From NCBI RefSeq assembly GCF_013407145.1, contig NZ_CP026993.1:952590-1016589 (forward strand): a stretch of DNA of 64,000 nucleotides, read 5' to 3'. The stretch is from Nitrosopumilus cobalaminigenes. GTDB taxonomy: Archaea > Thermoproteota > Nitrososphaeria > Nitrososphaerales > Nitrosopumilaceae. The position numbers were made by a program, and so were the translations under genes. The stretch's first letter is position 1; every line of letters begins with the position of its first letter. Positions 20,832 to 56,627 of this stretch are shown here, piece after piece. The notes below the pieces were generated by a model. The model searched no databases. It was not told where the DNA came from and saw only the letters and a program-made list of their open reading frames with translations.

Positions 20832-21085
20832 CCACAATCCAAAATTTCTATTTTGGATTGACATTGATCATTATACAAATCAATTCTTTCAAGGATATTT
20901 TCACAGTATTCAGGGTCTAATGATTTTTCATACGAATTAATATCATTTGAAATTAAAATATGATCAACACTACAAGAGTTATTTGTAAATATAGAAATCC
21001 CCACCAAAATTGAAAATCCAAACAGAATTAAGAATAAATATTTTAAATTAGTTTTTTGAAATATCAATTTCCATAGTAGAAACAT
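20828..21085 (-). CDS. Small membrane protein downstream of Alba fusion
   Basis: The frame is open from 21100; I choose the internal ATG at 21085, which starts [19 protein letters not shown] and gives about 85 aa. One strong membrane segment ([18 protein letters not shown]) is followed by an extracellular part with four Cys ([27 protein letters not shown]), which may form disulfides. The start overlaps the end of the Alba-repeat gene by about 38 bp, hinting at coupled translation. The family is not recognised. Confidence 0.55.
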
Positions 21086-21746
21086 TACGCTGTTTTCCAT
21101 CTTGAGATGTTAAAGAATCAGATGAGATTCTAACATCACTAATTACATATCCTACAGAATCCATTCGTTTTACTATCATTTGTGAAACATCAACAGCTTG
21201 TGTAATACGTTTACCTCTAGCTTTAATGGTAACGGTTGGTCTTGTAGAAAGTTGAGTTAAAGTTGCCGATACATATGTCATGATAGGTTTTGTTCCAACG
21301 AAAATTACATCACGTTCCTCAGGAACTTTTTTTGTTTCAGTAGAATCATTTGCCGGTTCTGGTGTTGGTTCAGGTTCTGGTGTTGGTTCAGGTTCTGGTG
21401 TTGGTTCAGGTTCTGGTGTTGGTTCAGGTTCTGGTGTTGGTTCAGGTTCTGGTGTTGGTTCAGGTTCTGGTGTTGGTTCAGGTTCTGGTGTTGGTTCAGG
21501 TTCTGGTGTTGGTTCAGGTTCTGGTGTTGGTTCAGGTTCTGGTGTTGGTTCAGGTTCTGGTGTTGGTTCAGGTTCTGGTGTTGGTTCAGGTTCTGGTGTT
21601 GGTTCAGGTTCTGGTGTTGGTTCAGGTTCTGGTGTTGGTTCAGGTTCTGGTGTTGGTTCAGGTTCTGGTGTTGGTTCAGGTTTAATTCTTGAATCGAATT
21701 CAGATAAGATGTCTTCTGCGTCTTTAGATTTTTTATTGCTGCTCAA
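21048..21746 (-). CDS. Alba DNA/RNA-binding domain with long Pro/Glu repeat N-terminus
   Basis: The 232-aa protein has a short charged start (residues 1-22), an 18-copy hexapeptide repeat of E-P-T-P-E-P type (about 23-131), a linker, and a complete Alba domain at about 145-232. The Alba part shows [17 protein letters not shown], the RNA/DNA-contacting [13 protein letters not shown] and [16 protein letters not shown], close to the classic Alba pattern. The lysine of GTKP matches the lysine that is acetylated in Sulfolobus Alba. The acidic Pro-rich tail should be extended and exposed. A free Alba would be about 95 aa, so this is an unusual architecture. Confidence 0.9.
21355..21678 (+). repeat. 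18 x 18-bp perfect tandem repeat inside the Alba-fusion gene
   Basis: The unit GGTTCTGGTGTTGGTTCA (plus strand) is repeated without visible change 18 times, 324 bp in all, followed by a partial unit. Being a multiple of 3, copy changes keep the frame. On the minus strand it encodes the hexapeptide repeat rich in Pro and Glu. Perfect identity points to recent expansion or ongoing homogenisation. Confidence 0.97.
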
Positions 21747-43583: not shown

Positions 43584-43913
43584 ATGCCAGAAGAATTAAC
43601 TAAAAAAGCAGCAGAAATGTTACTAAAAGGAGCAACATTACTAAGCGAACCATGTCCATATTGTAAAGGAGTTAGAGTCATGAAGGAAGGTCAGGCTTTG
43701 TGTATTGGGTGCGGTCGTCAACCAGAGAAAAAGGAGGTTCCAAAACCAGAATTATCAAAAGATCCTACATTGATAGAGAAAACATTTGAGAAAAAATTGG
43801 AATCACTCTCAAAAGAATTAGAAAATGAAAAGGATCATGAAAAACAGCAAAGTATACTCAAAACGATCAATTCGCTATTGGAAACAATAGACAAAATGAA
43901 AGGGAAACAATAA
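43584..43913 (+). CDS. UPF0148 / Sjogren-scleroderma autoantigen 1-like protein
   Basis: The 109-aa protein begins EELTKKAAEMLLKGATLLSE and has a zinc ribbon CPYCKGVRVMKEGQ-ALCIGCG, the family signature. A charged coiled-coil C-terminus follows. It is the last core gene before the accessory element, whose integrase starts 50 bp downstream. Its 3' end is complete, so the integration did not break it. Confidence 0.87.
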   Translation: MPEELTKKAAEMLLKGATLLSEPCPYCKGVRVMKEGQALCIGCGRQPEKKEVPKPELSKDPTLIEKTFEKKLESLSKELENEKDHEKQQSILKTINSLLETIDKMKGKQ

Positions 43914-43943
43914 AGAAAAACTAGACAAAACGGGGTATAACCA

Positions 43944-43965
43944 TCAGGCATGTACTGTACACATT
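43944..43965. repeat. Repeat copy 1 upstream of the integrase
   Basis: TCAGGCATGTACTGTACACATT is 18/22 identical to the copy at 45996-46017. It contains the palindrome TGTACTGTACA and touches the TTG proposed for the integrase start. It may be an operator or a recombination site. Confidence 0.6.
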
Positions 43966-45049
43966 GTCTTTAATTCGTGAAAATGACTTTAATTCATTGC
44001 AACGAAGTCTACTTCTCTTTGAAAACGCCATTCATTCAGATGCTACAATGAAACTCTACACAAAAGGCTTGCAGAACTTTATGCAATTTGTTGGATACGA
44101 GAATAAACATGATGAGTATGCCAGTTTACATTCCAAAGTTATCGACAAACATCTAGAAGATTATGTGTTGTATCAAAGTCATAGAAAAATCAAAGGAATA
44201 ACAGTTAGGAATTATCTAAAACCAATCTATCTTTTCTTGGATGTGAATCGAATCCAGTATTTTCCTAAAGCAATTAATCGATTAATTCCCAGAGACAAAA
44301 CAAAGAAAGGAAGTTCCAAACCATTTACAGATAAAGATATTCAAGATATGCTAGATTACACAAATAGTTCACGTAACAAAGCATTGGTCTTATTTTTTAG
44401 CTCTATTGGAGGTCGTCCTGCAGTGTTAACTGATCCTATCTTGTGTTTCAAACATCTTCATGTAATGCCACATGGTTGTAAGGCAGTCTTGATGTATGAA
44501 AATTCAGATGAAGAGTATTGGGGATTTTTAACACCTGAAGCATCAAATGCTCTTGAAGTGTACAGAGATGAAAGAATCAGAAATGGGGAAATCATTTCAC
44601 AAGAATCACCATTGTTTGCAATTCAAAAGAAAAACAGATTCAAAGAGGAATTGTATCTGAGCATACCTGCACTGAATTCAATTTTTGAAAACTTGGAGAG
44701 AAAGGCAAACATTGAGAAAATCAAAACAGGTTATCGCTATGACAAGGCTTTGATGTATGGGTTCAGGAAGAGATTCAACACTATCTTGAAGATTGAATCT
44801 ACAGTGAACAGTAACATTGCAGAAAAATTACTTGCTCACAAAAATGGACTTGATGGAGTATATCTCAAACCAACAAGAGAGGAATGTTTTGAAGAATTTC
44901 TAAAGGCGGTACCAGAGTTGACAGTTTCAAAAGCCGAGAAATTAAGCCTGAAATTAGAGAAATCAGAGTCTGAAAAAGACAAAAAGATTTTGAAATTAGA
45001 ATTAGAGATGAAAGAAGTCTACAAATTATTAGAGCAGATTAGAAATTGA
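43964..45049 (+). CDS. Archaeal tyrosine recombinase (SSV-like integrase)
   Basis: The 361-aa integrase starts with TTG. Its catalytic C-terminal domain has the first Arg at R151 (SSIGGRPAVLTDP), the box-II region YGFRKRFNTI with R268, H292 in LLAHKNG and the nucleophile Y300 in DGVYLKPTREE. The N-terminal part (about 15-100) is a SAM-like DNA-binding domain. A Lys/Glu coiled coil ends the protein (LEKSESEKDKKILKLELEM). It marks the left edge of the element. There is no sign of splitting by integration. Confidence 0.85.
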   Translation: MSLIRENDFNSLQRSLLLFENAIHSDATMKLYTKGLQNFMQFVGYENKHDEYASLHSKVIDKHLEDYVLYQSHRKIKGITVRNYLKPIYLFLDVNRIQYFPKAINRLIPRDKTKKGSSKPFTDKDIQDMLDYTNSSRNKALVLFFSSIGGRPAVLTDPILCFKHLHVMPHGCKAVLMYENSDEEYWGFLTPEASNALEVYRDERIRNGEIISQESPLFAIQKKNRFKEELYLSIPALNSIFENLERKANIEKIKTGYRYDKALMYGFRKRFNTILKIESTVNSNIAEKLLAHKNGLDGVYLKPTREECFEEFLKAVPELTVSKAEKLSLKLEKSESEKDKKILKLELEMKEVYKLLEQIRN

Positions 45050-46423: not shown

Positions 46424-46599
46424 GCTGGTGCAATCTCTGCAAAATGGAACTAGGAGATATTTCAGCATCTAGAAAATATATTCATGACATTATTTATCAT
46501 CAAGGAAATTTTGAAAATCAAATAGTTGATTTATCAAAGGAACAAATTATCATTATTCTCTGTAATGTTACAAAGACGTTTTACTTTGATGAAAATTGA
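46420..46599 (+). CDS. 59-aa Cys-pair protein of the replication operon
   Basis: A frame starting MSWCNLCKMELGDISASRKY overlaps the previous gene by 4 bp (ATGA) and the Rep gene by 4 bp (TTGA). It continues IHDIIYHQGNF to a C-terminal FDEN. CxxC with H22/H27 could bind zinc. Overlap on both sides is strong evidence for translation. The function is unknown. Confidence 0.6.
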   Translation: MSWCNLCKMELGDISASRKYIHDIIYHQGNFENQIVDLSKEQIIIILCNVTKTFYFDEN

Positions 46600-47432
46600 A
46601 TCAAGAAACGTATCCTGCAAAGACGCAAAGTAAATTTTCTGATTGGTATGATCAAACAAACTATGCTAGTATAGAATGGGATGGATGGAATCTACCAAAG
46701 TCAGGTGAATCAAAAGATGATTGCGGTCAATGGGCATGGCGTGGATGTCTTGATTACAAAAAACATTCAGATGGAATGATTCAAGCTCAGACTTACAAAC
46801 TTTGTTGTTTCAGAGCAAGTTGTCCTAAATGTGCAGGACAATGGGCAAGTCGTTCCACTGCAAGAATACTAGACAGATTAAAAGCATCAAAGAAGAATCT
46901 AAAATATCTAAAACATGTTGTAGTATCCCCACCAACCTGGCTACAGCACAAACCAATTGAGTTCTTGAGAAAAGAAGCAAGAAAAATGGCAAAGCGTGCA
47001 GGGATACAAGGAGGACTAGACATTGTACATCCATTTAGAAAGAAAGGTAAACAGTGGTATCTATCACCGCACTTTCATTATCTGGCATTTGGTTGGGTAA
47101 CACTTACTGATGAAATCTTTCAGAAAAACGGATGGTTGGTAAAAAACATTGGAATACGTGAGAATCCAATTGGCACTGTAATGTATTTGCTAAGTCATGC
47201 AGGAGTAAAGAAACGTCGTCACACAATTACTTGGTTTGGTATTTTATCATATAGCAAATTGAAAATCGAAAAGTTGGATTTTCATATCAAATGTCCTGAA
47301 TGTGAGGCTAATTTTCAGAGATTGATATGTTTTAGGGAAGGATGGGCAGTAAAACCACCTCCAATCAGCATGGAAATTAGTGATGAACCAAAGGGATGGA
47401 AGTATTGGTTAGATCATCTTAGAGGATTCTAA
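46596..47432 (+). CDS. rep: HUH (Y1) rolling-circle replication initiator Rep
   Basis: The 278-aa Rep nicks origin DNA and covalently binds it. A Cys cluster LCCFRASCPKCAGQWASR lies at about 69-86. The HUH motif is PHFHYLAFGW with H159 and H161; the nucleophile is Y197 in GTVMYLLSHAGVKKR. The C-terminus adds a second CxxC (IKCPECEANFQ). This pattern fits archaeal plasmid Reps. The start is TTG in the overlapping operon. The last 147 bp are duplicated at 50826-50972. No origin sequence was recognised. Confidence 0.88.
   Translation: MNQETYPAKTQSKFSDWYDQTNYASIEWDGWNLPKSGESKDDCGQWAWRGCLDYKKHSDGMIQAQTYKLCCFRASCPKCAGQWASRSTARILDRLKASKKNLKYLKHVVVSPPTWLQHKPIEFLRKEARKMAKRAGIQGGLDIVHPFRKKGKQWYLSPHFHYLAFGWVTLTDEIFQKNGWLVKNIGIRENPIGTVMYLLSHAGVKKRRHTITWFGILSYSKLKIEKLDFHIKCPECEANFQRLICFREGWAVKPPPISMEISDEPKGWKYWLDHLRGF
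47286..47432 (+). repeat. Left copy of the 147-bp rep 3' end
   Basis: The last 147 bp of rep, from ATCAAATGTCCTGAATGTGAG to the TAA, occur again at 50826-50972 with no indels. By hand count 17 positions differ, about 88% identity. Confidence 0.9.
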
Positions 47433-47542: not shown

Positions 47543-49012
47543 GTGCTTCACGATGTTATGGAAACTGATAGTCCTGAAGAATACAATATCTTAATCAAAT
47601 TATTAAAAAAATATCCACAAGATACTGAAATGTACAATCCATGTAATACTAGAGATTTGCAGTTAGAAGCAGGTCGCTTAACTGTAAATCGCACATGGGA
47701 TGAATTATCCAATTTAGGTAACAGATTAAGAGCTCGTAGTAATTCAGATTGGAATTTATTTCTTGGAGAATATGAAGTAAGAAAAACATTAAGGGAATTT
47801 GGATGTAATATATGCGGCACCGGTGGTCCGTATGATAAATTATCATCAAATTTAAAAGATGAAGAATTTAGAGCTAAAGTAGCTGCAGAATTAGAAAAAC
47901 AAGGTAAACCACCAGAATTAATTGATAAAGTAATTTCTGCTGTGGATGGTGAATTTAAAAATAAATTAAAGGATATTTTGAGATATCCAATGCATTTCAT
48001 TTCTCTAAGGAGTCAGTTTTCTATTGCTTTGGGATATACGGGATTATTATCAGGGTTTCATAGTGTATTTAACAAACATTTTTCTGTAATTGACATTCCA
48101 ACATTTGAAAGGAAGGAAATTGATTTTATTAAAAAACTCATTGATGAATTTCAAGAAAAAAATATTTTAGGATTATTAGAAATTCACTCTGCCTTTTCGT
48201 TAGGTGATCGCGAAAAAATTCGAAATATATCCACATCTGTTTTTAATGAACAGGAATCTACGATGAAATGGTATGCCATAGTGTCAGCTACAATTGCAAA
48301 AGCAGTAACAAGTTATATTTCAGAAGATCCATCGTTGGCAAGAGCATTTGGAAAATTAGAACATTTATTGAGTCACGCTGTAAGAAGTTGGATTTTAACT
48401 AGCGTAGTTGCTATGTATGGAAAACGTATAGCATTACTTCGAGATGACGATGATGAATTCGAAGATGAAATAAAAATGGCAAGAAAGTTAGCATTTAATT
48501 CAAAAATACCAAATGGAAAAAATATTACTATTCGTGAATTATATAATAATAGTGATGAAAATGATGGGAAATATTTGGAGATAAATGGTTTCGTAAAAGA
48601 TATTGCGATTCAAAGAGAAGGTGAAAAACTCCTTACAGTTTTTAAAATTTATGAGCCAGGAAAAGATGAAGAAATTCCAGGAGTGGTAATTTTTGAAAAT
48701 ATGCCACGCCATGGGATGGTAAATAATGGTTTTATCAAAATGCATGGAACTTGGAAAAAAGATTCCAACGTGGTAGATTATCCTGTTTTTCAAGTTGAGA
48801 GAATCAATTTAACAGAGTTATCTAAAGAAAGTTGGTATGATTATATTCTAATGAAAGTTAGACCGTGGTTTGATTTCTATCCAAATTCAAATCATGTTGA
48901 ATGGTCAATTAGACCACAAGAAGAGTGGAATCCGGACGTAGAGAATCTCAATACAGGTGCGGGCGAACTTATTTTTATAAAACCTTTTACTCAAAACAAG
49001 GTGATACCATGA
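47543..49012 (+). CDS. 489-aa unknown protein, first gene of the cargo
   Basis: It starts at GTG and encodes 489 aa, with no signal peptide or membrane helix. The N-terminal half (about 1-330) is helical, with CNICGTGG and a D/E-rich segment RDDDDEFEDEIKMA. The C-terminal part (about 340-440) is beta-rich, NDGKYLEINGFVKDIAIQRE and EEIPGVVIFENMPRHG, perhaps an OB-like fold. It overlaps the next gene by 4 bp (ATGA). The family is not recognised. It is probably part of one functional unit with the Cys-rich and TGT-like proteins. Confidence 0.72.
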   Translation: MLHDVMETDSPEEYNILIKLLKKYPQDTEMYNPCNTRDLQLEAGRLTVNRTWDELSNLGNRLRARSNSDWNLFLGEYEVRKTLREFGCNICGTGGPYDKLSSNLKDEEFRAKVAAELEKQGKPPELIDKVISAVDGEFKNKLKDILRYPMHFISLRSQFSIALGYTGLLSGFHSVFNKHFSVIDIPTFERKEIDFIKKLIDEFQEKNILGLLEIHSAFSLGDREKIRNISTSVFNEQESTMKWYAIVSATIAKAVTSYISEDPSLARAFGKLEHLLSHAVRSWILTSVVAMYGKRIALLRDDDDEFEDEIKMARKLAFNSKIPNGKNITIRELYNNSDENDGKYLEINGFVKDIAIQREGEKLLTVFKIYEPGKDEEIPGVVIFENMPRHGMVNNGFIKMHGTWKKDSNVVDYPVFQVERINLTELSKESWYDYILMKVRPWFDFYPNSNHVEWSIRPQEEWNPDVENLNTGAGELIFIKPFTQNKVIP

Positions 49013-49362
49013 GTGAAAGTTGTGAAGATTACCGCGAATCGTGTATAGAAAATTGTGAGGCAATTGTTGACAGAAATGCAGAATGTGAAGATATGCAATG
49101 GGATACAGCAGAAGATTGTGCATTTGCTGCAGGGGAATGTGCTCTTTTAGCTGCTGCTACAGGTGCAACTGGGGGCGCCGCGGGAGTAATAGCAACTGCA
49201 TTGTGCGTCGGTCGAGTAGCGTCTTGTTGGGACAGTGTAATGGATATTTGGGATTGTGAAGCAGAAATGGGTGATATGGAAGATGTATGTTTAGAGTCAT
49301 GTGATGAATATCATTCATGTTTACATAGAGCTGAATATGAGCATCATCCAGATGATCCATAG
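49009..49362 (+). CDS. Cys-rich protein with Gly/Ala hydrophobic core
   Basis: Starting at the ATG overlapping the previous TGA, the 117-aa protein is acidic, with about 14 Cys. The start MSESCEDYRESCIENCEAIV is followed by a hydrophobic Ala/Gly-rich part (CALLAAATGATGGAAGVIAT, then ALCVGRVASCWDS) and a Cys/His tail (CLESCDEYHSCLHRAEYEHH). No leader peptide is seen. The design is reminiscent of small toxins or disulfide-rich effectors but no family is recognised. It sits between two large cargo genes. Confidence 0.65.
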   Translation: MSESCEDYRESCIENCEAIVDRNAECEDMQWDTAEDCAFAAGECALLAAATGATGGAAGVIATALCVGRVASCWDSVMDIWDCEAEMGDMEDVCLESCDEYHSCLHRAEYEHHPDDP

Positions 49363-49378
49363 ATTTTAAATATTTGTT

Positions 49379-50803
49379 TTGTCAAAATACAATTTTTATT
49401 TTAATCTAGGTCGTTCAACTTACAATGCACGAATTAATGGATTTGTAAATCCTGATGGTTATTTGTTATCTGTTCATCGATACACTCCTCAAAGAATTAA
49501 ATTTTGTTTAGAATTAGGATTGGAGTTTGATGAACTTATTTTTGCAGATAATGGTTTTTTTAAACATATCAATTTACTAAAAAAAGAATTCAATAATTTA
49601 TCAACCCCCCTTTTAAAACAAATTACAGATATTGAAAGATCCTTAGATCATAGCATATATCCTAATGAGGTTCCAACTGAGTTACGAGAAAAATATAGAA
49701 TTCTCATCAACAATATCAAGAACAAATTATCATCGATAGAAAAAGAAATAATTCCAGAAAATACAGTATCTGAGCAAAATAAAATCAACCCAAAACGATT
49801 AATCTGTAGAGAAGACATCCTTTTGGCATCCCTAATTGGTCTCAGTATTGAACCAGAATATGTAAAAAAATATAGTTCATTTTACACATATCGAAACAAA
49901 CGTTCAGCCCGATTCTATAATAATACAATTTCAAAAAAATATGGAAAATATTTTGGTAAACCTTATGGAGTTATTTCAGCAGTTGATTATGATAGTGCAT
50001 TTAATGCTGGAAAAGAGATGGCAAAAAACAATGTAAGGAATTTAGCGCTTGGTGTAGGGGCTTCAATGGCAGATAATAATTGGACTGATTATTACATTAA
50101 ACAAAAAAAAATTGTTGAATTACCTAGAAAAGTTCCCAGAAGATCTTTGCGAACTCCTTTAATTGTTAAGGGTATATGTGACGGATATTATTCTTGGAAT
50201 AAAAAATACCCATCAAAATTCCATTTTCTGGGGCTAGGCTCTCAAATTATGATTTTAATTTGTTCATTAATAATGCATAAAACTAGAGAAGTGAGTTTTG
50301 ATGCCACTAGTCCCATAAAAGATGGTTTTATGGGTTTGATTTATTTCAATAAACCTGCCGAAAAGAAAGTTTCTGCAAGAACATTATCGTTGATGTTTTG
50401 TAAAAACCCTGATTCAGAATGGGGGTGTAACTGTAAATATTGTAAGCATTACTTGCCAAATTATCCTTTTGATTATGAGCAAGCAGTAGAATGGTATGAA
50501 CAAAACGATCGACCTAAAAAAATTCTTGCAAAACATCTAAAAGGAAATATTGGACTGCCCGAGTCTCTACCAATGTTCAGTGAACCAGATAAAGGCCAAA
50601 GACGGACAGATATAAGAGATTGGAGAATGGGCCATAATCACATTATGATAAAAAATTTAGTAAAGGAAATTGAAAAAAACGATAAAGAAATGAATCTAAA
50701 AACATTCACAAAAAATAAAGTTATTGAATACGCCGATTCAACTACAGCACCTCATGCTTATGGTGCATCATTAGGTTATTCCATTGCAATCGGACAATTT
50801 TAA
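49379..50803 (+). CDS. TGT-fold base transglycosylase, DpdA-like
   Basis: The 474-aa protein (TTG start) resembles tRNA-guanine transglycosylase. The general catalytic Asp fits D57 (IFADNGFF) and the nucleophile Asp D308 (EVSFDATSP), after the strand FHFLGLGSQIM. The zinc site is C350-x-C352-x2-C355 (CNCKYCKHY), with H419 in MGHNHIMIKNLVKEIE matching the last helix of TGT. The spacing to the His is longer than in TGT, and there is no PUA domain. TGTs swap guanine for a 7-deazaguanine; DpdA relatives do so in DNA. DNA modification or phage defence is therefore plausible. A tRNA role remains possible. Confidence 0.75.
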   Translation: MSKYNFYFNLGRSTYNARINGFVNPDGYLLSVHRYTPQRIKFCLELGLEFDELIFADNGFFKHINLLKKEFNNLSTPLLKQITDIERSLDHSIYPNEVPTELREKYRILINNIKNKLSSIEKEIIPENTVSEQNKINPKRLICREDILLASLIGLSIEPEYVKKYSSFYTYRNKRSARFYNNTISKKYGKYFGKPYGVISAVDYDSAFNAGKEMAKNNVRNLALGVGASMADNNWTDYYIKQKKIVELPRKVPRRSLRTPLIVKGICDGYYSWNKKYPSKFHFLGLGSQIMILICSLIMHKTREVSFDATSPIKDGFMGLIYFNKPAEKKVSARTLSLMFCKNPDSEWGCNCKYCKHYLPNYPFDYEQAVEWYEQNDRPKKILAKHLKGNIGLPESLPMFSEPDKGQRRTDIRDWRMGHNHIMIKNLVKEIEKNDKEMNLKTFTKNKVIEYADSTTAPHAYGASLGYSIAIGQF

Positions 50804-50972
50804 AAATAAAAAATTAGAATTTGTAATCAAATGTCCTGAATGTGAGGCTAATTTTCAGAGATTGATTTGTTTTAGAGAGGGATGGGTAGTAAAACCGCCT
50901 CCAGTAGGCATGGAAATTTCTGACAATCCAGAAGGATGGAAGTATTGGGTAGAGCATCTTAGAGGATTCTAA
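50784..50972 (+). pseudogene. Truncated rep 3' end
   Basis: The frame encodes a 62-residue string whose last 49 residues (IKCPECEANFQRLICFREGW and onwards) match the C-terminus of Rep. It lacks HUH and Tyr motifs. It begins inside the end of the TGT-like gene in another frame, so it is a duplication scar, not a likely functional gene. The homologous DNA is 50826-50972. Confidence 0.75.
50826..50972 (+). repeat. Right copy of the 147-bp rep 3' end
   Basis: Partner of 47286-47432. Some similarity appears to continue past the stop codons: CAGAAAAGATAAACT near 47457 compared with CAGAAAGCATAAACTTAGG near 50981. Confidence 0.9.
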
Positions 50973-51845: not shown

Positions 51846-51861
51846 TTCTTTGAAAAGGCAT

Positions 51862-53070
51862 ATGGAAAATAGATGGTCATTAATTAAATCAATTTCAGAT
51901 GAACCTACAGGAGAAACAAAATATCTTGGAATTGGTGACGTTTGTAATACTCTTGTAAATTATATTCAATCAGAAAAAATTGTAACGCCCATGTCTATTG
52001 CCATTCATGGTCAATGGGGCAGTGGTAAAACTAATCTGTTAAAGGCTTTACAAAAAAATCTACATGAAAATAAAACTAAAGTAGTTTATTTTGATGCATG
52101 GAAACATGAATCAGGCAACCCTTCTGTGGCATTAGTTGGAAAAATCATGAAAGAATTATCAGGAGATACCACCATGATAAAAAATGTTGTCAAATTAGCA
52201 GCTGATGCATTGATTAGAAAAACATTAGACATGCAATTAGATGAAGTGGCAAATAGATTATCTGAAGGAATGGAAGCATCAGAATCATTATCTGAAGTAT
52301 TAGAAAAAAAAATTAATCGAGAAATTGGAGATGATAAAAAATTGATAGTCCTAATAGATGATTTAGATAGATGTGATATTGAAAATACATTACAAATTTT
52401 ATCGTTGTTGAAATTATTTTTAGATATTAAGAATTGTGTTTGTATTGCTGCAATTGATTTTCATAGAGTAGAGCAAGCTTGGTTTTCAAAATATGGTATT
52501 AAAGAAGCAGAAGAATCTGAATTAAAAAAAGAGGGAAGACAGTATTTAGAAAAAATATTTCAAATACGCGTACCCATCCCTCATCCAAGAAATGAACAAA
52601 AATTTGAATATATTGAAAATTTAATGAAAGATGTACCTAGAGAGTATCTCGACTTGTTTGTAAAATTTGGTCCTTCAAATCCTAGAGCAATAAAACGTAC
52701 AATAAATCTGATTTCGTATAGAAGTATTTTATGCACATCAGATGATAAAGAAATGACAGCTTTCATTTGGACATTGTTAGATGAGAATTTTGGATCTAAA
52801 GAACTGATTAAAGTATATGATAAATTTGAATCCGAAGGAGGATTCATTCAAGTGATTGATGGAATACAAACAGATGGCAATAGATTTCAAAATACAATGA
52901 GCTCAGTACATAGACCTCAAAATTGTAAAATAAAATTTCAGAGCATGGGAAACATTTTGGAGTTTTTCAAGACAACTTCAGGTATGTTTAGAGAGATGAC
53001 ATCACCTAAGGGTTCCATAGTGAAAGATTTTAGCAAATTGTATTCATCTACTAAACAATTGCAAGATTAG
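51862..53070 (+). CDS. KAP-family P-loop NTPase
   Basis: Using the ATG at 51862 (a TTG 12 bp upstream could also start it), the 402-aa protein has Walker A (HGQWGSGKTNLLKAL), then FDAWKHESGNPSVALVG, typical of KAP proteins. Walker B is LIVLIDDLDRCD and the sensor region CIAAIDFHRVEQAW. KAP NTPases are often membrane-linked and include phage-exclusion proteins such as PifA. No membrane insertion is obvious here. The upstream membrane protein may supply the anchor. Confidence 0.85.
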   Translation: MENRWSLIKSISDEPTGETKYLGIGDVCNTLVNYIQSEKIVTPMSIAIHGQWGSGKTNLLKALQKNLHENKTKVVYFDAWKHESGNPSVALVGKIMKELSGDTTMIKNVVKLAADALIRKTLDMQLDEVANRLSEGMEASESLSEVLEKKINREIGDDKKLIVLIDDLDRCDIENTLQILSLLKLFLDIKNCVCIAAIDFHRVEQAWFSKYGIKEAEESELKKEGRQYLEKIFQIRVPIPHPRNEQKFEYIENLMKDVPREYLDLFVKFGPSNPRAIKRTINLISYRSILCTSDDKEMTAFIWTLLDENFGSKELIKVYDKFESEGGFIQVIDGIQTDGNRFQNTMSSVHRPQNCKIKFQSMGNILEFFKTTSGMFREMTSPKGSIVKDFSKLYSSTKQLQD

Positions 53071-53130: not shown

Positions 53131-53307
53131 ATGGGAAAATGTCAATGCCAAGAATGCCGATGTGAAGAAAAAATAGACATCCTTGATGAACATAGACATG
53201 GACAAGAAATCAATTTAGCAAAGTTAAGAGGCAAACCTGAACCTCAACATTTGTGTTGTCAAAGATGTAAAGCAGGTCAGCATTGGAAACAGGAATTTAA
53301 AAAATGA
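53131..53307 (+). CDS. 58-aa Cys-rich protein
   Basis: The frame reads MGKCQCQECRCEEKIDILDE, then HRHGQEINLAKL and QHLCCQRCKAGQHWKQ. Seven Cys and several His could bind metal. Its TGA overlaps the ATG of the protease gene (ATGA), so the two are coupled. It may be a zinc regulator. The family is not recognised. Confidence 0.65.
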   Translation: MGKCQCQECRCEEKIDILDEHRHGQEINLAKLRGKPEPQHLCCQRCKAGQHWKQEFKK

Positions 53308-54719
53308 GATTTATAATAATTATTGCAATAGCATTTGTTTTGTTAATTCCATTATTTGCAATTCCTACATTTCAACAAGAAGCATTTGCAAAGGCAGATT
53401 ATGGTCTTAGTTATTCACAACATAAATTTTCAAACCAACCTATAGTGTGCATCTATGAACCAAATGTTCCTAATGCCAGAGATGTAATTGTGGAATCTTG
53501 GATTAAAGAAACAGTTCTAGGAGTTGAAAGTTGGCAACATGATTTAGCAGCATCAGAATACAATCTTAAAGACAGATGGAATATTCACACACAAGTAATT
53601 TCATTAGAAGACCAAGTCTTCTTTGATAACAAAGATTGCGATGTTGAGATTAGATTTGTAAAACTAGACCCAAACTATACAGCAGCAGGATGGCACATAT
53701 TTCAAAATGGTAAAAGTCAGATTAGTCTAGTATATACTGAAACTGAAGTTTGCAGGACATGGATTGAAGGAAACATCAGATATACTGAATGGTGTTACAA
53801 AGATGATCTAGTTCGCTCTAAAGCATTAGGCAATACTGCAACACATGAATTTGGTCATGCAATTAGTTTAGGACATTACACATCTGATAATCCATATGAA
53901 AATGCAGAGTGGAGTTCAGATCCTGTACGCAGTCCATCTGTAATGACTGAAGCAGTTCATTACAATGAAGAAAAAAACAAAATTCGCCCCATTGATATTA
54001 ACAAAGTCAAAGAAATCTATGGAGGAGAAGGATTTGGAGAACCAAAACAAACAACTCCTCAAAATAGCCCTGTTTTTGAAAGTAAAACTCTAGGAGGATT
54101 TGAATCCCTATTCACTTTAGAATCTACATACTACAAAGAACCAGGAAATACATACTATCTTACAATAAGTGGCAAAGTAACAGAAAAGGCATATTCCAAA
54201 GGACAAAACATTCTACTAACAACTACATTTCCAGACGGACATGATGAAGAACAAAAAGTTCTAGCTGTTGGCAGTAGAAACTTTGCAACTCAGATGAGAG
54301 TAGATTCTTCTGCTGAAACTGGTAAGTATACAATTTCTGCAAGATACATGGGATATGATAGTGAGACCATAACTTTTAGCATTCTTGATGCATCTGAAAA
54401 ACCAATTCCAAAGGCAATTCCCAAAGTAACACCAGAGCCAAAAGAAATCAAATCACTACCCACATGGTTAAAAAATAATGTAAAGTGGTGGTCTCAAGGC
54501 TCAATTGATGACCAATCATTTACTCAAGGAATTGAATATCTAATTTCAGATGGAATAATCAACGTTCCAATTACTGAAAAAACAGTTAGTCAAACAGATG
54601 AAATTCCATTATGGGTTAGAACAAATGCCAATTGGTGGGCAGAAGGAATGATTACAGATTCTGATTTTGTTAAAGGGATTGAATATTTAGTGAACAGTGG
54701 AATAATTCAGGTAAAATAA
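53304..54719 (+). CDS. Secreted zinc metalloprotease (metzincin-like)
   Basis: The 471-aa protein has a signal peptide (RFIIIIAIAFVLLIPLFAIP). The catalytic domain holds H181-E-F-G-H185-x5-H191 (HEFGHAISLGH) and a possible Met-turn (SVMTE, M214). Two W-x3-N modules end the protein: LPTWLKNNVKWWSQGSID and IPLWVRTNANWWAEGMIT. The same modules occur in the host protein at 41077, showing exchange with the host. The target is unknown. Confidence 0.87.
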   Translation: MRFIIIIAIAFVLLIPLFAIPTFQQEAFAKADYGLSYSQHKFSNQPIVCIYEPNVPNARDVIVESWIKETVLGVESWQHDLAASEYNLKDRWNIHTQVISLEDQVFFDNKDCDVEIRFVKLDPNYTAAGWHIFQNGKSQISLVYTETEVCRTWIEGNIRYTEWCYKDDLVRSKALGNTATHEFGHAISLGHYTSDNPYENAEWSSDPVRSPSVMTEAVHYNEEKNKIRPIDINKVKEIYGGEGFGEPKQTTPQNSPVFESKTLGGFESLFTLESTYYKEPGNTYYLTISGKVTEKAYSKGQNILLTTTFPDGHDEEQKVLAVGSRNFATQMRVDSSAETGKYTISARYMGYDSETITFSILDASEKPIPKAIPKVTPEPKEIKSLPTWLKNNVKWWSQGSIDDQSFTQGIEYLISDGIINVPITEKTVSQTDEIPLWVRTNANWWAEGMITDSDFVKGIEYLVNSGIIQVK

Positions 54720-56528: not shown

Positions 56529-56627
56529 ATTCTCGAATAGACTTGAGTAGACTGGATCAAATGGTTTATGGGCAAAAAGTCTTAGCTTACAATAAAGTTT
56601 TTATGTTAAAATCCGTGTTGTCGAATT

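Follow-up and report, generated by a model that had tools for sequence, protein, structure and literature searches.

Genomic context of the locus

The window analysed here is a stretch of 64,000 nucleotides from Nitrosopumilus cobalaminigenes (contig NZ_CP026993.1, positions 952,590 to 1,016,589 of the forward strand), and coordinates refer to it unless another locus is named. It contains an integrated element of 12.69 kb with the 9-bp repeat ACAATAAAG at both ends, delimited by its breakpoints against relatives with an empty site. In L188, L190, L191 and L195 the two flanks directly adjoin each other, and in L193 they are separated by ~0.86 kb of other sequence; the att repeats, missed by a repeat search alone, were recovered by this empty-site comparison. 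The element and its main features are as follows.

43907..43915, no strand: attL core ACAATAAAG, located at the 3' terminus of the conserved gene 43584-43913; breakpoint against empty sites
43964..45049, + strand: tyrosine-recombinase-like integrase of 361 aa at the left end; open reading frame with relatives beside Rep in other genomes, assigned by sequence judgement and unmatched in Pfam
46596..47432, + strand: Rep-like protein, with relatives in 23 other genomes out of 150 searched, several of them adjoining integrase fragments
47255..47432, + strand: copy 1 of a 178-nt direct repeat, corresponding to the rep 3' end; repeat search
47543..49012, + strand: cargo gene 1, a 489-aa protein with a possible OB-fold at about residues 328-428; open reading frame with weak, overlapping, sub-threshold matches to DUF1980_C and CcmE
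49009..49362, + strand: cargo gene 2, a Cys-rich protein of 117 aa from an ATG start (145 aa if it starts at GTG 48925); open reading frame with coding signal
49379..50803, + strand: TGT/DpdA-like transglycosylase of 474 aa; open reading frame, coding signal, and profile matches to the DpdA core and a short TGT family
50795..50972, + strand: copy 2 of the 178-nt direct repeat, 84% identical, an orphan rep 3' end that ends the cargo block
51850..53070, + strand: KAP-family NTPase within the element, resembling the defence proteins QatA and PDC-S20; sequence matches
56589..56597, no strand: attR core ACAATAAAG; breakpoint against empty sites in relatives

The genes for the 489-aa protein, the ~117-aa protein and the TGT (tRNA-guanine transglycosylase)-like protein run in the same direction with tight spacing and form a cargo block bracketed by the two copies of the rep 3' end. 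Because the rep genes of relatives align over nearly the whole length of this one, rep is regarded as intact and copy 2 as a remnant; the block probably arrived through recombination between related elements. An earlier note on this DNA had placed the TGT-like gene in a mobile element, beside a Rep gene and two genes of unknown function. Both points hold: the setting is an element with integrase-like and Rep-like genes and with intact empty sites in relatives, and the Rep-like gene is closely followed by two unknown open reading frames (489 aa and 117-145 aa).

No relatives of the 489-aa protein were found in 95 genomes of the same genus, in phages or in plasmids, and its faint likeness to DpdF (E 0.06) and to DpdA (score 30) was judged to be due to chance. 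The Cys-rich 117-aa protein matched no family, and the TGT-like protein has no counterpart in the same-genus genomes searched. The KAP NTPase gene lies ~1 kb from the TGT-like gene. Neither DpdB nor any other recognised Dpd component was present among the element proteins scanned, which likewise included no CD-NTase or QueC-like protein and none of QueC, QueD, QueE and FolE. Also within the element, positions 53304-54719 encode a secreted-looking protein with a weak match to matrixin-type (M10) peptidases. Elsewhere in the window, at 21048-21746 on the minus strand, a long PEPTPE-type repeat precedes what appears, as judged from the sequence alone, to be an Alba-type DNA-binding domain.

Sequence features of the 474-residue protein

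The open reading frame at 49379-50803 (+) comprises 474 codons with a TTG start and no internal stops. Its codon usage is host-like, scoring +0.155 per codon in frame and negative in the remaining frames and in antisense. The residues that characterise the TGT superfamily were located as follows.

49547..49549, + strand: codon of D57 in ADNGFF (D-x-G-x-F), putative general acid/base Asp; aligns with GDCGAF in DpdA and with DSG in TGT
49646..49648, + strand: codon of D90 in SLDH, candidate base-recognition Asp; aligns with S(L/V/I)DH in DpdA and with LDxP in TGT
50300..50302, + strand: codon of D308 in EVSFDATSP, putative catalytic nucleophile; aligns with SFDSAS/SFDTTSP in DpdA and with SFDSTRP in the short family
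50426..50443, + strand: C350-C352-C355, putative zinc cluster; aligned to CxCxxC by both hhalign and MAFFT
50633..50638, + strand: H419-N420, at the position of the fourth zinc ligand; aligns with F/I-H-N of DpdA, the short family and arcTGT

The two Asp residues of the TGT motifs (D-x-G-x-F and FD), D57 and D308, were aligned in every alignment, and F61 apparently occupies the position of the base-stacking Phe. The assignment of D90 is uncertain, one alignment favouring D146. A putative CxCxxC...H zinc site is present, with C350, C352, C355 and H419 falling on the Cys and His positions of the family; in the DpdA alignments H282 and G285 also fall on family positions. The protein ends ~50 residues beyond the HN pair and gave no PUA match in a Pfam search, and 64 residues separate the Cys cluster from the His, compared with roughly 20-35 in the aligned relatives. 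The earlier note had listed D57, D308, the 350-355 cluster and H419, the missing PUA domain and a long Cys-His insertion, all of which were confirmed, the residues at those very positions and in agreement with the alignments. It had overlooked a second and larger insertion (~65-70 residues) that separates the D57 block from the barrel strand matched next.

Homology searches and structure prediction

Sequence searches of Pfam, NCBIfam, PHROGs, PADLOC and PDB gave no match to the 474-residue protein, which was unmatched in particular by PF01702 and by the PADLOC model for DpdA (PDLC02807). No BLAST-level relatives were present in phages, plasmids, viral contigs (IMG/VR) or GTDB species contigs, nor among 398 genomes of the same phylum and 250 of the same family, so that at ordinary search sensitivity the protein is an orphan. 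Weak matches to a CBS-domain protein (L002) and an arginyl-tRNA synthetase (L003) were judged to be due to chance, and DpdA-model matches in two further genomes (G152 and G304; L042/L043) were located in unrelated small proteins.

AlphaFold gave a pLDDT of 35 from the single sequence and of 50 with a DpdA alignment; the top PDB match of the latter model was 7UI4 (E 0.12), a result biased by the alignment used. Strands were predicted in that model at residues 28-31, 54-57, 196-199, 221-225, 280-284 and 304-307, and a non-barrel fold is not indicated by models of this quality. Since structure prediction was too poor to serve as independent proof, the identification rests on sequence profiles and motif order.

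Kinship with DpdA and a short TGT family

DpdA sequences were gathered from archaea, plasmids, GTDB genomes and viral contigs. In hhalign comparisons, a trimmed core of 14 DpdA sequences matched the 474-residue protein with a score of 44.5 (P 3.4e-5). None of 40 shuffles scored above 21.7, and none of 32 other open reading frames of the window exceeded 30.0. When all ~100 DpdAs were profiled from a gappier alignment, the score fell to 33.6 (P 0.0024). The larger set adds co-linear blocks at residues 15-122 (DGxLxS, ADNGFF, SLDH) and 345-358 (DSEW-CNCKYC), each weak when taken singly. After MAFFT --add, the protein matched 23 of 55 DpdA columns conserved at 90%, a count also reached by the best of 120 shuffles. 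Conserved positions are partly altered: the invariant DpdA Gln (QGW, 36 of 36 aligned DpdAs) is replaced by S200, the invariant DCGA has become DNGF, and the signature FRGNNRNRRRGFHN is cut down to ...GHN, in which the HN and scattered residues are retained.

In the GTDB set, many dpdA loci hold a second TGT-like gene of ~300 aa that matches PF01702, and its product may serve DpdA as a partner subunit; examples lie at L132 10202-11134, L114 7052-7966 and L144 1868-2788. The profile of the full set of 26 such proteins matched the 474-residue protein with a score of 47.0 (P 9.3e-6) and with the CxCxxC aligned, subsets scoring 40.3-43.6. Here 60 shuffles gave no score above 23.0, and 42 other open reading frames none above 21.1. 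A multiple alignment of the short family with the protein remains good across the zinc site and HN, and the profile of these 18 aligned proteins, searched against the PDB, retrieved DpdA 7UI4 first (9e-20), followed by archaeosine TGT 1IQ8 (1e-12) and then queuine TGTs. In the phylogenetic tree, the protein is placed beside the short TGT family with modest support (89/77) and an end branch of 3.6; its exact position is unsure because of this very long branch and the modest support.

The likeness to DpdA and to the short family is thus above chance. The arcTGT profile scored 23.0 (decoys to 26) and 29.9 in the reverse direction, and these comparisons favour a probable enzyme of the TGT superfamily that stands closer to the Dpd-associated families than it does to the archaeosine tRNA TGT. 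Its description in the earlier note as a DpdA-like enzyme of the TGT fold is therefore upheld as to kinship (44.5 for DpdA and 40-47 for the short family, against at most 23 for shuffles) and not as to fold, for which no significant structural match was obtained. That note had also proposed a profile comparison with DpdA and arcTGT and named clear membership in the archaeosine TGT family as evidence against its view; the comparison gave 44.5 for DpdA and 23-30, near the decoy range, for arcTGT, and with PF01702 unmatched and the PUA domain absent no such membership was seen.

Proposed function and alternative explanations

TGT enzymes use an Asp nucleophile at C1' and an Asp acid/base to exchange guanine for a 7-deazaguanine. 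By analogy, D308 would attack C1' of a guanosine and expel guanine, and D57 would act as acid/base and position the incoming preQ0, or a derivative of it, supplied by the archaeosine pathway of the host. Exchange of the base in element or neighbouring DNA could then hide that DNA from host nucleases or mark it as self. The host genome, a single contig of 1.56 Mb, encodes QueC outside the element; the host can therefore make preQ0, which should be available. Its sole PF01702 gene found is the arcTGT at G000:C1:1345174-1346142, which is also the only match of the DpdA profile, so that no full DpdA was detected in the genome. The host supply assumed in the earlier note is accordingly plausible, with QueC present and a separate arcTGT of the host's own.

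We put a probability of about 0.5 on the reading that the protein is a divergent, stand-alone DpdA-like transglycosylase, carried as cargo by an integrated plasmid-like element, which modifies DNA with host preQ0; its catalysis, DNA substrate, preQ0 donor and protective role are what we infer. Nothing in the data tells DNA, RNA and protein apart as acceptor, and DNA would be the likeliest because the nearest families are Dpd-associated. Bacterial dpdA often adjoins dpdB, a gene not recognised in this element. Phage DpdA places preQ0 in DNA, which is thereby shielded from restriction (PMC6884629), so that there is a precedent for activity in the absence of the bacterial Dpd partners. Against this reading, the lack of close homologues leaves no sign of selection on the catalytic residues, and S200, the cut-down signature, the missing DpdB, a model too poor to prove the fold and the long-branched tree position also speak against it.

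Among the alternatives, the foremost, though unlikely, is a second tRNA-guanine transglycosylase that would, like the archaeosine TGT, swap guanine in the tRNA of host or element. The shared superfamily, a motif order and zinc site that fit a TGT equally well, and a preQ0-producing host all suit it, whereas an arcTGT, the only PF01702 gene found, already serves the host, the PUA domain is absent, and the arcTGT profile scores 23-30, near the decoys, compared with 44-47 for the Dpd-associated families. Next in rank, and also improbable, is a non-catalytic or decaying TGT relative, either a partner subunit like the short TGT-like proteins beside dpdA or a cargo gene in the process of being lost. 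The top profile match is indeed a family that adjoins full DpdA, the conserved Gln is replaced by S200, and the protein sits on a very long branch, has no close relatives and lies in a block with a degenerate rep copy at its edge; yet the frame of 474 codons is intact with host-like codon usage, the Asp pair, zinc ligands and HN are all kept, and the genome offers no full DpdA to partner, the DpdA profile finding only arcTGT.

Cap10 of type IV CBASS, a TGT-family protein remodelled to bind deazaguanylated protein (PMC11996544), raises the further idea of a TGT-like protein repurposed for protein handling in a CBASS-like manner or as a partner of the element's KAP NTPase. This QatA-like NTPase lies ~1 kb away, and QatA accompanies a QueC-like enzyme in qatABCD (PMC13279940). 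We hold the idea to be quite improbable: a scan of the element's proteins revealed neither a CD-NTase nor a QueC-like one, the two catalytic Asp residues are retained, and KAP NTPases are common enough for the association to be fortuitous. The least probable reading is a chance resemblance of motifs in an orphan protein unrelated to TGT. It would account for the absence of direct database matches, for the low confidence of both the single-sequence and the DpdA-aligned models and for a conserved-column count that overlaps the shuffles, but not readily for scores of about twice the best shuffle in two separate families, nor for co-linear blocks, independent of one another, that keep the catalytic and zinc positions in their order.

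Returning to the DNA-modifying reading, a specific and tentative version of it is a single-enzyme hypermodification module, in which a remodelled transglycosylase, perhaps with the 489-aa protein as an OB-fold partner, might use preQ0 from the host tRNA pathway to modify the element's DNA; biosynthesis and restriction genes would be absent from such a module.

Related islands in the genus and significance

The earlier note's claim of a new type of DNA-modification or anti-restriction system goes too far, since Dpd modules are already found on haloarchaeal plasmids and on two islands in the same genus. One integrase-bearing island (L213 3714-13525; G549:C60) carries a TGT/DpdA-like gene (348 aa) and QueC, together with a DUF5591 protein, a DrmC-like PLD protein, an AAA ATPase and a KAP NTPase. 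The other (L214 1-14201; G537:C74), also integrase-bearing, encodes DrmA- and DrmB-like proteins, QueC, QueD and a partial DpdA-like stretch fused to DUF6884, and resembles a helicase system of the DISARM type that has 7-deazaguanine genes as its partner instead of a methylase. What is unusual in the 474-residue protein is that it stands alone and is extremely divergent, with altered conserved residues.

If the protein modifies DNA, a minimal 7-deazaguanine system could run on the archaeal tRNA precursor pool without preQ0 genes of its own, and 7-deazaguanine DNA modification would be placed in a lineage taken, on the strength of gene content, for ammonia-oxidizing archaea. Integrative Dpd-like islands within the genus make this minimal-system idea testable in relatives. 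Should it act on protein or tRNA, it would be a further case of mobile elements re-using the TGT fold.

Comparison with known systems

With DpdA (PDLC02807, 7UI4) the protein shares DGxLxS, D-x-G-x-F, S-x-D-H, HxxG, SFDxxS, DxxW-CxCxxC and HN in identical order, as well as a location on mobile DNA, archaeal plasmids included. It differs in being only ~20% identical, in the loss of the FRGNNRNRRRG signature, in its two insertions and in the replacement of Gln by S200. Phage DpdA of the 9g type (phrog_887), of which the known cases act on DNA (PMC6884629), has D-x-G-x-F and the nucleophile region in common with it; the CxCxxC cluster is missing in 9g DpdA, and the score of the 474-residue protein to a mixed short set was only 25.7, near the decoys.

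The archaeosine tRNA TGT (PF01702; 1IQ8) has the superfamily, the catalytic Asp pair and the zinc site in common with the 474-residue protein, which lacks its PUA-type C-terminal part. Cap10 resembles it as a TGT-family protein in deazaguanine-dependent defence (PMC11996544), a likeness drawn from its description, whereas neither a CD-NTase nor a QueC-like Cap9 was found among the scanned proteins of the element. The short TGT-like proteins of ~300 aa from Bacillota and Chloroflexota (PF01702) resemble it in the N-terminus (FYxxW / FYFNLG), in an SFDxTxP motif followed by an (I/F)Y(S/F)xP stretch, in CxCxxC and in HN. Unlike them, the protein reaches 474 aa through its insertions, has no dpdA alongside and no longer scores to PF01702, as they still do.
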